Shown piece after piece: positions 1-10,228 of a DNA stretch of 11,838 bases. The DNA is from Nitrospinota bacterium (GTDB lineage Bacteria > Tectomicrobia > Entotheonellia > J063). The stretch's first letter is position 1, and each line of letters begins with the position of its first letter. The stretch is taken from positions 1-11,838 of the forward strand of contig RFHZ01000572.1 in the NCBI GenBank assembly GCA_003696125.1. The letters are read 5' to 3'. The notes beneath the pieces are model-generated. The model was not told where the DNA came from. It saw nothing but the letters and a program-made list of their open reading frames with translations, and searched no databases. The translations under genes and the position numbers were made by a program.

Positions 1-1299
1 CTCAAACTCCTGCCGTTCGATGTGTTCCTTCTTCTTGCGTACGATCTCGCTGATCTGCCGCTGCAGGTCGCGGACCTCTTGGGGCAGGGTCACCTTCTGC
101 AGTCGCACCCGGGAGCCGGCTTCATCCACCACATCGATGGCCTTATCCGGCAGGTAGCGATCCGAGACGTAGCGATCCGAGAGGCGGACCGCCTGCACGA
201 TGGCTTCGTCAGGGATGCGGAGTCCATGATGCGCTTCGTAGCGGTCTTTCAGGCCGCGCAGGATTTCGATGGTCTCCTCCACCGTGGGGGGCTCCACGAT
301 GATCGGCTGGAAGCGTCGCTCCAGGGCGCCATTCTTCTCGATGTACTTGCGGTACTCATCCAGGGTGGTGGCCCCGATACACTGCACCTCTCCCCGGGAA
401 AGGGCCGGCTTCAGCATGTTGGAGGCATCGACCGATCCCTCGGCAGCACCGGCACCGACCAGGGTATGCAGCTCGTCGATGAAGAGGATGACGTTTTCCG
501 ACTGCACGATCTCCTTCATGATCGTCTTCAGACGAGCTTCAAACTGTCCCCGGTATTTGGTCCCGGCCACCAGGGCTCCCAGGTCGAGGGAGATCACCCG
601 CTTATCGTAGAGGACCTCGGGAACGTCTTTATCCACGATGCGCTGGGCCAGGCCTTCCACGATGGCCGTTTTCCCTACCCCCGGCTCTCCGATCAGCACC
701 GGATTGTTCTTGGTGCGGCGGCTCAGGATCTGGATGACCCGTTCGATCTCCTTTTCCCGGCCGATGACCGGGTCGAGCTTGCCCCGGCTTGCCAGTTCGG
801 TCAGATCCCGCCCGAATTCGTCGAGGGCCGGGGTCTTACTCTTCTCCTTGGTCTGGGTGGTCGGCTCCTGCAGGAGGCTCAGGATCTTATCCCGCGTCTC
901 CACCAGCCGCACCCCCATGCTGTTCAGGACCTTAAAGGCCACGCCATCTTTCTCTTTGAGCAGTCCTAACAGGAGATGCTCGGTCCCGATATAGTTGTGG
1001 CCCATCAAGCGAGCTTCCTCCACCGCATACTCTAACACCTTCTTCGCCTTGGGGGTAAAGGGGATCTCCCCCACGATCAGGGTGTTGAGGCTACGGGGAA
1101 GGTTATGCTCCACCTCTTGCCGAAGCTGGTTGATATCCAACCCGAGCTTCTGCAGTACCGTGATGGCAATGCCACCCCCATCTTTAAGGATTCCTAACAG
1201 GATATGTTCGGTTCCAAGATATTCATGATGATACCGCTCCGCCTCTTCGCGAGCTAAAATGATTACCCGTCTGGCTCGTTCGGTAAATCGCTTAAACAT
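1..1299 (-). CDS. clpC: ATP-dependent Clp protease ATP-binding subunit ClpC (N-terminal 433 residues, gene continues past the left edge)
   Basis: Translating the minus strand from ATG 1299 gives an uninterrupted frame to base 1, beginning [11 protein letters not shown], the usual ClpC start. Two Clp N-terminal repeats are visible in about the first 145 residues ([13 protein letters not shown], then [13 protein letters not shown]). The first AAA+ module follows, with Walker A GEPGVGKT near residues 203-210, a Walker B region [17 protein letters not shown] and an arginine-finger-type segment GALERRFQP. The visible part ends in the start of the coiled middle domain ([19 protein letters not shown]). 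ClpC is a hexameric unfoldase that feeds proteins to ClpP in the cytoplasm. The second AAA+ module and C-terminus are outside the window. The start overlaps the lolD stop by 8 bases, and a GGAGGAGGAGG tract just upstream is the ribosome binding site, so translation is probably coupled to lolD. Family assignment is firm; ClpC rather than ClpA or ClpB is inferred from the N-domain and linker. Confidence 0.95.
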
Positions 1300-8482: not shown

Positions 8483-9151
8483 TCACCCCTTCCCGTTTAT
8501 CAGGTGGTGTAAAAGCCGCAGGTATTCGGACTGGGGTACCGCCCCCACGATGCGCTGGGCCTCGACAAAGCGGGGAGTGTCAGCCTCGGTGTCCCCTGGC
8601 TGCAGGGTATGGAAGACCACGGTGGGGATGGCGGTGACCCGGTAGGTGGCGGTTGCCTCACGGAAGTCTTCCCAGACCAGGGCTCTGGCCTTACCCGTCT
8701 CCCAGTCCTGCCGGAAGGTCTCCATGTCCAGACCGGCTTCCTGCGCCACTTCGTATATCTCTTCTCGCCTGCTGATATTTTTCCCCTGGGTGAAGAAGGC
8801 CTCAAAGAGGAGGAGGTGCATGGTCTGGAACGCTTCCTCTCCCTGCCAGGAGGCGCATTTGGCCGCCTCCAGAGCCGGGAGGCTCCAGGTGGGGAAGTCT
8901 TCCCGTTCCCATCTGGTGAAGGTGATCCCGTCCTCGGCCGAGAGCAGGGCCGCTCTCCGCCAGGCCATCTCCCGGTACGTGCCACGGAAGGTCACGTTGG
9001 GATCCGGTTCGGGACGAAGCGGGAAGCTCTTACGCTCGATGATGAGGTGTTCCCCCCATGCTTCCTCGATGCGCCGGAGGCGAACCGCCGCCGGGTAGCA
9101 CCAGGGTCAGAGATAATCAGAGAATTCTACAATCTTGATCGCTATATCCAT
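8483..9151 (-). CDS. DsbA/FrnE-like thiol oxidoreductase with selenocysteine at the active site (Sec-Pro-Trp-Cys), UGA at codon 15
   Basis: Read from ATG 9151, the frame encodes M-D-I-A-I-K-I-V-E-F-S-D-Y-L, then TGA (9109-9107), then P-W-C-Y-P-A, and continues open to TGA at 8485-8483: 222 residues in all. In DsbA/FrnE-family thioredoxin-fold proteins this position reads DxxCPWCY, so the TGA replaces exactly the nucleophilic first cysteine of CPWC; the second, Cys18, is kept. The rest of the fold is present: a helical insertion (about 80-160), and the cis-proline loop TAIPTVVF with Pro176. There is no signal peptide, pointing to a cytoplasmic enzyme. A SECIS-like hairpin starts 4 bases after the TGA. 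GGGGGAACC precedes the ATG, which lies 15 bases after the FAH-family gene, so the two are co-transcribed. Gene callers that treat TGA as stop would report only the last 170 residues from GTG 8995. A cysteine-to-stop mutation in a dying gene is the alternative; intact downstream coding and the hairpin argue against it. No Sec machinery is in the window. Confidence 0.88.
9068..9109 (-). promoter_or_regulatory. putative bacterial SECIS element with its UGA codon
   Basis: Starting at UGA 9109-9107, the mRNA folds into a stem of three blocks: GGUGC (9102-9098) with GCAUC (9072-9068), CCGG (9094-9091) with CCGG (9077-9074), and GGCG (9089-9086) with CGCC (9082-9079), closed by the loop GUU (9085-9083). 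That is 13 pairs with one C/U mismatch and a small internal loop. The apical loop begins 21 bases after the UGA and its first base is G, both as expected for SelB-binding bacterial SECIS hairpins. Pairing was worked out by hand, not by energy calculation, and the region is GC-rich. Confidence 0.7.
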
Positions 9152-9166
9152 GGTTCCCCCGTAAAC

Positions 9167-10126
9167 TTACTCCTTACTCCTGACCACCCGGTTGCGCAAC
9201 TCTCCCACCTTTTCCACCGTGATCACCACCTCGTCTCCATCCTGGAGGAGGCGCTGCGGGTCACGGGTAAACCCGACTCCAGAAGGGGTACCGGTGGCGA
9301 CGACGTCTCCCGGTTCCAGGGTAAAGATCTGGGAGAGGTAGGCTATGATTTGCGGGATCTTAAAGATCAGGTGTTTCGTGTTAGAACTCTGCATCTGTTC
9401 CCCATTGAGCTCCAGCCGGATGTCCAGGCTATGGGGGTCAGGCACCTCGTCGGGCGAGACCAGGGCCGGGCCCAGCGGGGCAAAGGTATCAAACGTCTTT
9501 CCCACCATCCACTGCCCGGTCTTGAACTGGAAATCCCGGGCACTGACGTCGTTCATGATCGTGTACCCGGCCACATACTCCATGGCCACCTCTTCGGGGA
9601 TCTCATGGCCACGCTTGCCGATGATGAAGGTAAACTCCGCTTCGTAATCGACCTGGGTGCTGACCCGGGGCAGGACAATGTCGGCACCCGGACCGATAAG
9701 GGCGGTGTTGTATTTGGAGAAGAGGACCGGTTCGGTAGGAATCGGCTGGCCGGTTTCCTCGGCATGATCACGATAGTTGAGGCCTAAGCAGATGATCTTG
9801 GGGGGATTGAGGATAGGGGCAAGGAGGGTAACCTCGGCCTCTGGATAGAGGATGCCGGGATGCGGTTTGCCCGCCTCTGCTTCCAGGAGGGAAGAGTTCT
9901 CGATGACGAAGTGTAAGGTTTCCTGCGCTGCTTCGCGTGACTTCTCTCCCCCTTCCAGAAAGGCCCGCATGTCCGGAGGGAGCAGGGCAGCGGCAAGGGC
10001 GGTGGCACGTGGTTCCCCTTTTTCCTGCAACAGGCGGGCACAGGCCCGGTTGAGATCGATGACCATCCCGGTCCAAAGCGCTCCCAGACGGGGTTCAATA
10101 CCGTTATGAAAGGTGACAAGACGCAT
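9167..10126 (-). CDS. Fumarylacetoacetate hydrolase (FAH) family protein
   Basis: A 319-residue enzyme of the FAH superfamily, whose members cleave or isomerise C-C bonds next to keto groups in 2-oxo acids (acylpyruvate hydrolases, oxaloacetate decarboxylases or tautomerases, aromatic-catabolism hydratases/isomerases). The C-terminal catalytic domain starts near residue 108 (KIICLGLNYRDHAEETG). The Mg2+ ligands are visible as Glu162, Glu164 (QVDYEAEF) and Asp193 (NDVSARDFQ). Other family landmarks are Lys210 in VGKTFDTFAPLGP, and GDVVATGTPSGVGFTRDP at 273-290. An N-terminal domain of about 100 residues is typical of the longer members. The frame extends upstream to 10228, but ATG 10126 is chosen: AAGGAGG lies seven bases before it and MRLVTFHNG is the usual start. 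The substrate cannot be fixed. The gene has its own promoter (10200-10228) and heads a two-gene operon with the selenoprotein. Its last codons contain two GAGTAAG heptamers, the second giving the stop. Confidence 0.9.
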   Translation of the reverse strand: MRLVTFHNGIEPRLGALWTGMVIDLNRACARLLQEKGEPRATALAAALLPPDMRAFLEGGEKSREAAQETLHFVIENSSLLEAEAGKPHPGILYPEAEVTLLAPILNPPKIICLGLNYRDHAEETGQPIPTEPVLFSKYNTALIGPGADIVLPRVSTQVDYEAEFTFIIGKRGHEIPEEVAMEYVAGYTIMNDVSARDFQFKTGQWMVGKTFDTFAPLGPALVSPDEVPDPHSLDIRLELNGEQMQSSNTKHLIFKIPQIIAYLSQIFTLEPGDVVATGTPSGVGFTRDPQRLLQDGDEVVITVEKVGELRNRVVRSKE

Positions 10127-10199
10127 ACGTGTTCCTCCTTGCCTTATCTTGGTGGTAGATACGGTCCACACACATCGCCACTCGGCTTCTACTCCCTCT

Positions 10200-10228
10200 A
10201 TTCTTCCAGACAGGGACGGGGATGTCAA
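10200..10228 (-). promoter_or_regulatory. promoter of the FAH-selenoprotein operon
   Basis: On the minus strand TTGACA (10228-10223, perfect) and AAGAAT (10205-10200, 4 of 6) are separated by 17 bases. The -35 begins 4 bases after the stop codon of the upstream dehydrogenase gene. The expected start near 10193 gives a leader of about 67 bases. Confidence 0.65.

Follow-up and report, generated by a model that had tools for sequence, protein, structure and literature searches.

A predicted selenocysteine-containing gene of the cytoplasmic DsbA/FrnE-like type in a Nitrospinota bacterium of the class Entotheonellia

The window analyzed here, meaning the whole stretch of DNA under study, comprises the 11,838 nucleotides of contig RFHZ01000572.1 from a Nitrospinota bacterium (assembly GCA_003696125.1). 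When the minus strand of positions 8483-9151 is translated with TGA read as selenocysteine (Sec, U), it gives MDIAIKIVEFSDYL-U-PWCYPAAVRL... and ends at a terminal TGA (8485-8483). Translation confirmed the original prediction that a 222-codon frame starting at ATG 9151 holds a single in-frame TGA, at codon 15 (9109-9107), and the alignment of homologues confirmed that this codon falls exactly on the first Cys of a CPWC redox motif. The claim that ordinary ORF calling would truncate the product to 170 residues without the active site was also borne out, as the sole ORF that the ordinary listing has for this frame is 170 aa long, with a GTG start (8483-8995).

The ATG lies 15 nt past the stop of an upstream FAA-hydrolase gene, and co-transcription of both genes is possible (Table 1). 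No conserved gene neighbourhood was found around the Sec-DsbA gene, and the window showed no synteny when compared with five other Sec-DsbA loci. The window protein carries a loop insertion of ~14 residues (residues about 184-198; 8555-8600, minus strand) that is missing from the aligned relatives.

Table 1. Features of the Sec-DsbA/FrnE-like gene and its flank in the window
Feature	Position	Strand	Remarks
Sec-DsbA/FrnE-like ORF, 222 aa, predicted Sec at residue 15	8483..9151	minus	terminal stop 8485-8483 included; translation, Pfam, homologue conservation
In-frame TGA, codon 15, predicted to be read as selenocysteine	9107..9109	minus	aligned with first Cys of CPWC
Cys18 codon, resolving Cys of U-P-W-C	9098..9100	minus	translation and alignment
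SECIS-like stem-loop	9074..9094	minus	nt 16-36 from U of UGA; loop GUU, G 9085, U 9084
Cys99 codon (AAKCA), possible third redox Cys, putative role	8855..8857	minus	alignment
cis-Pro loop proline Pro176 (AIPT), invariant	8624..8626	minus	alignment
GGGGGA, Shine-Dalgarno-like, 3 nt 5' of ATG 9151	9155..9160	minus	direct reading
FAA-hydrolase family gene, upstream	9167..10228	minus	ORF list and profile matches

The product matches the Pfam family PF01323 DSBA (1.5e-21, 77.5 bits against a cut-off of 25.6), and no NCBIfam model accepts it. Its best PDB sequence match is FrnE of Deinococcus radiodurans (DrFrnE; E 8e-5). An AlphaFold2 model built with the homologue alignment (pLDDT 91.8, pTM 0.89) matched DrFrnE with Z 23.9 (rmsd 2.4, 202 residues), YjbH with 23.5, GST kappa with about 21, HCCA isomerase with 20.4 and DsbM with 20.1; DrFrnE is the top row of this search, tied with YjbH (Spx partner). 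By closest PDB sequence and predicted structure, the window protein is a DsbA-family thioredoxin-fold protein of the FrnE-like type. It has no signal peptide or anchor and strand 1 of the model begins at residue 4, which indicates a soluble cytoplasmic protein. Pfam, the PDB sequence search and the predicted fold all bear out the cytoplasmic FrnE/DsbA-like label of the original prediction.

Both the CxxC-type centre (U15-P-W-C18) and the cis-Pro loop are present, and the loop is normal, as had been anticipated. The invariant positions of the alignment include D12, C/U15, P16, C18, R24, S90 and P176. Of the 22 rows sampled from the all-Sec clade of window-type sequences, 21 have Cys99, which is also found in the Cys rows from Chloroflexota and Rokubacteria and is replaced by Ala in the other Cys rows. 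The 222-aa product has no C-terminal CXXXXC and no Cys past residue 99.

FrnE proteins (subfamily cd03024) are predicted cytoplasmic DsbA-family oxidoreductases, and DrFrnE has been proposed as a cytoplasmic disulfide reductase whose C-terminal CXXXXC, missing in some homologues, serves for regeneration (PMC8945050). DrFrnE (DR_0659; PDB 5cnw, 5cp1) shares the cytoplasmic DsbA-family fold and a CPWC-type motif with the window protein at about 21% identity, but it has Cys where the window protein has Sec, as well as a CXXXXC at residues 239-244 (PMC8945050) for which the window protein has no counterpart. DsbM of Pseudomonas aeruginosa (5hfg, 5hfi), a cytosolic DsbA-fold disulfide reductase, lies at Z 20 to the model, with 17-19% identity over the aligned region, and is not a selenoprotein as deposited. 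The only NCBIfam model to match the window protein at all is NF041057 (Rcas_1661 thioredoxin-like (seleno)lipoprotein), at 40.1 bits against a cut-off of 190; the active-site region lies outside the match, and the family is named a lipoprotein.

A second Sec-DsbA of the same bin is nearer to NF041057 (112 bits). This gene (L081; 1372 to about 707, minus strand, contig C250 of G000) encodes a membrane-anchored Thioredoxin_4/DSBA protein with EFSDYR-U-PHC, and each of the five class genomes has the TGA at this position (the other four being L173-L176). The next gene after it encodes a membrane protein that, by eye, looks like DoxX/MauE.

The class of the window's genome comprises five genomes, and two relatives within it, from other genera, have homologues (G001, 56% identity; G004, 52%) with one TGA each at the same codon. 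A wider set of 95 genomes was taken from the phylum that holds the Rokubacteria relative G007 (from L022). Full-length homologues with 45-62% identity and one TGA were found in 43 of these genomes (44 genes), and inspection of each sequence placed the TGA at query position 15 and nowhere else. Close homologues had been named as a place where random disruptions could surface; none were seen, and 46 other genes have this single TGA as well. Across ~69 distinct TGA-bearing homologue sequences the only internal stop was always at the alignment position of codon 15, a match that, judging from these sequences, is far above chance.

Distant paralogues in the same phylum-set genomes (roughly 26-38% identity) share the TGA, in the contexts DYL-U-PWC, DYV-U-PWC, DLL-U-PYC and DVL-U-CWC. 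Cys homologues come from Chloroflexota, Myxococcota and others, in a set that is Cys-biased since one search pattern contained the Cys motif. In the listed homologues without TGA the aligned residue is Cys, never Trp. Plasmid records gave just distant matches (about 30% identity) among the matches listed. A comparison of close Rokubacteria orthologues, L132-L134, L137 and L138 with L022, L024-L027 and L149-L151, showed DVFSDYL-[U/C]-PWCYNAAVRL, with TGA versus TGC at the same codon. A third DsbA-like group of Rokubacteria (L142-L147) has FSDYV-U-PWCYLSTVR, and a divergent DsbA-like ORF with YHDVL-U-CWC (L166; 3754-4458, minus strand) shares its contig with a window-type Sec-DsbA.

The tree comprised 110 rows, of which 47 were of the window type. 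These 47 sequences form a single clade (100/100), all of them Sec. Over the whole tree the Sec/Cys label needs six changes, at least four of which are forced by well-supported branches, and a second Rokubacteria group mixes orthologues with Sec and with Cys, which interchange at the codon position. The row of the window groups with two rows of the Rokubacteria phylum set (97/87), apart from its class relatives, a placement that could reflect gene transfer, binning or weak signal.

selA, selB, selC and selD were all looked for in the window's genome bin (G000; 990 contigs, 94.8% complete, 8% contaminated), and the whole set is present. The tRNA-Sec scored 74 bits and was also called by ARAGORN as tRNA-SeC with anticodon tca. 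SelB scored 386 bits and is 57-62% identical to the SelB of the four class relatives, while SelA scored 560 bits on contig C102, and C184 carries another, N-terminal piece of it. The SelD gene (L017, about 3-299, minus strand, contig C684) carries a TGA at VACAG-U-ASK, which we take to be the site known to carry Sec or Cys, and by sequence this SelD appears to be a selenoprotein itself. SelD is listed with the motif UxxK in a 2026 inventory (PMC13188914). What links the window to the sec genes is binning and their occurrence across the class, as they share no contig; tRNA-Sec and SelB were found in each of the five class genomes, of which two are single-contig, indicating that the Sec trait is class-level and independent of the binning of one contig.

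Downstream of the TGA a hairpin spans nt 16-36 from the U of UGA, with its GUU loop about 21 nt past the UGA. Of the 7 core pairs, 5.98 were formed over 44 distinct sequences versus 4.13 +/- 0.16 in synonymous resampling (500 draws, maximum 4.73, with relatedness of the sequences ignored), and mean hairpin energy was -12.0 versus -8.6 kcal/mol in synonymous redraws. For the window sequence alone, all pairs were formed in 2% of synonymous draws. With the structure named from the window, 78% of the alignment cells are paired (about 22% unpaired) versus 40-55% when it is slid.

No compensatory changes in the stem were found on the alignment count, the codon-identity excess after the UGA was overall not significant (p=0.13), and the RNAalifold consensus was a different, weak 4-pair structure. 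The loop GU coincides with a conserved Val codon. In the second Rokubacteria group, hairpin energies of Sec (-8.7) and Cys (-9.1) orthologues, five each, did not differ, so energy alone cannot separate Sec from Cys. That the hairpin is SECIS-like, with a codon choice that favours its pairs, is supported but not proven by these sequences. In L142-L147 an identical 33-nt stretch with a strong hairpin follows the TGA in 6/6 genomes and is the best-looking SECIS of the set.

The original prediction named Sec-containing Dsb-like proteins as reported from metagenomic surveys, and Sec DsbA proteins with UxxC are indeed catalogued since 2008 (PMC2398784; PMC13188914). The GOS metagenome survey of 2008 gives 63 sequences of 'DsbA 1', from metagenomic reads and commoner in marine samples (PMC2398784), and the 2026 inventory has a 'DsbA-like protein form 1' (PF01323, UxxC; representative NIP15863.1) and refers to a Methylomirabilota genome for which 63 selenoproteins are predicted (PMC13188914). 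Two DsbA-like selenoprotein sequences are reported from Asgard archaea (PMC11227280). The Sec-DsbA kind is already known, and the window gene is a further member of it. DsbA 1 shares the Pfam family and the U-x-x-C with Sec for the first Cys; the window clade (cytoplasmic FrnE-like, SDYL-U-PWCYPAAVRL) is not described in the available text and may or may not include DsbA 1. No dedicated family model for the clade was found in NCBIfam, a literature search on FrnE as a selenoprotein gave nothing relevant, and no description of a cytoplasmic FrnE-like Sec clade and its spread was found in the literature searched.

Judged from sequence data, the ORF is almost certainly a genuine selenoprotein gene; the original prediction of a true selenoprotein is supported by the Sec machinery in the same bin and by the recurrence of its TGA in the other genes. 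One third-base change is enough to yield TGA, and the metagenome assembly behind the bin is fragmented, which would suit a pseudogene or a sequencing or assembly error, with a codon that is really TGC or TGT or a gene in decay. However, the frame is full-length and conserved, and the 46 other genes, nearly all of them in other genomes, have the TGA at the same codon without other stops, so that an error in sequencing at 9109-9107 is very unlikely; we regard this explanation as refuted by that recurrence and give it almost no weight. An in-frame TGA inside a conserved protein would likewise be expected if UGA were reassigned genome-wide (e.g. to Trp) or read through non-specifically. This is just as improbable, and codon reassignment was rejected: the Sec ORF itself terminates in TGA, prfB (RF2, 535 bits) is on the window's contig, the residue aligned in the listed homologues is Cys and never Trp, and the bin has complete Sec machinery.

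The chemistry is less firmly placed. From the fold, the likeness to DrFrnE and the published account of FrnE (PMC8945050), the protein is probably a cytoplasmic Sec-Cys disulfide reductase/isomerase. It could instead be a real selenoprotein acting as an oxidase, a selenol-dependent peroxidase or a GST-kappa/HCCA-isomerase-like enzyme, given that the fold is also that of GST kappa and HCCA isomerase (Z 20-21) and of YjbH (23.5), and that many thioredoxin-fold selenoproteins act on peroxides. Against this stand the resolving Cys kept in U-P-W-C, which to our knowledge GST kappa and HCCA isomerases lack, the position of DrFrnE as nearest by both sequence and structure, and the cytoplasmic nature of the protein, with no adjacent DsbB-like partner within the window; we consider such other chemistry unlikely, at a fraction of the probability of the reductase/isomerase role.

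UGA codon 15 is most probably decoded by SelB and Sec-tRNA(Sec), possibly aided by the hairpin with its loop about 21 nt downstream. In the U-P-W-C centre, opposite cis-Pro176, Sec15 would attack as the selenolate and Cys18 would act as the resolving thiol. By analogy with the proposals for DrFrnE and DsbM, the enzyme most likely reduces or isomerises disulfides, or else mixed disulfides with glutathione, in the reducing cytoplasm, and could be re-reduced by thioredoxin or a low-molecular-weight thiol. More speculatively, the conserved Cys99 might take part in regeneration in place of a C-terminal CXXXXC.

A broader reading is put forward tentatively, as one that we hold somewhat doubtful: the 47-sequence clade may be a subfamily of cytoplasmic FrnE-like disulfide enzymes that is essentially Sec-only and has yet to be described. 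It would span two phyla whose members are largely uncultured. Several of their DsbA-like paralogues (UPWC, UPYC, UCWC and anchored UPHC) would have moved to Sec, and at least one group would have switched between Sec and Cys repeatedly. If true, this would be a sign of a thiol-disulfide system based on selenium in these lineages. The active site of the enzyme is lost in ordinary annotation, and the homologue search suggests that other genes are exposed to such loss as well, in more than 40 genomes of the Rokubacteria phylum set and in several paralogous families. The clade is a clean starting set for building a curated selenoprotein model, and it raises the question of why a cytoplasmic disulfide enzyme keeps Sec, for which close Sec and Cys orthologues of Rokubacteria (e.g. 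L134 versus L022) could serve as natural matched pairs.
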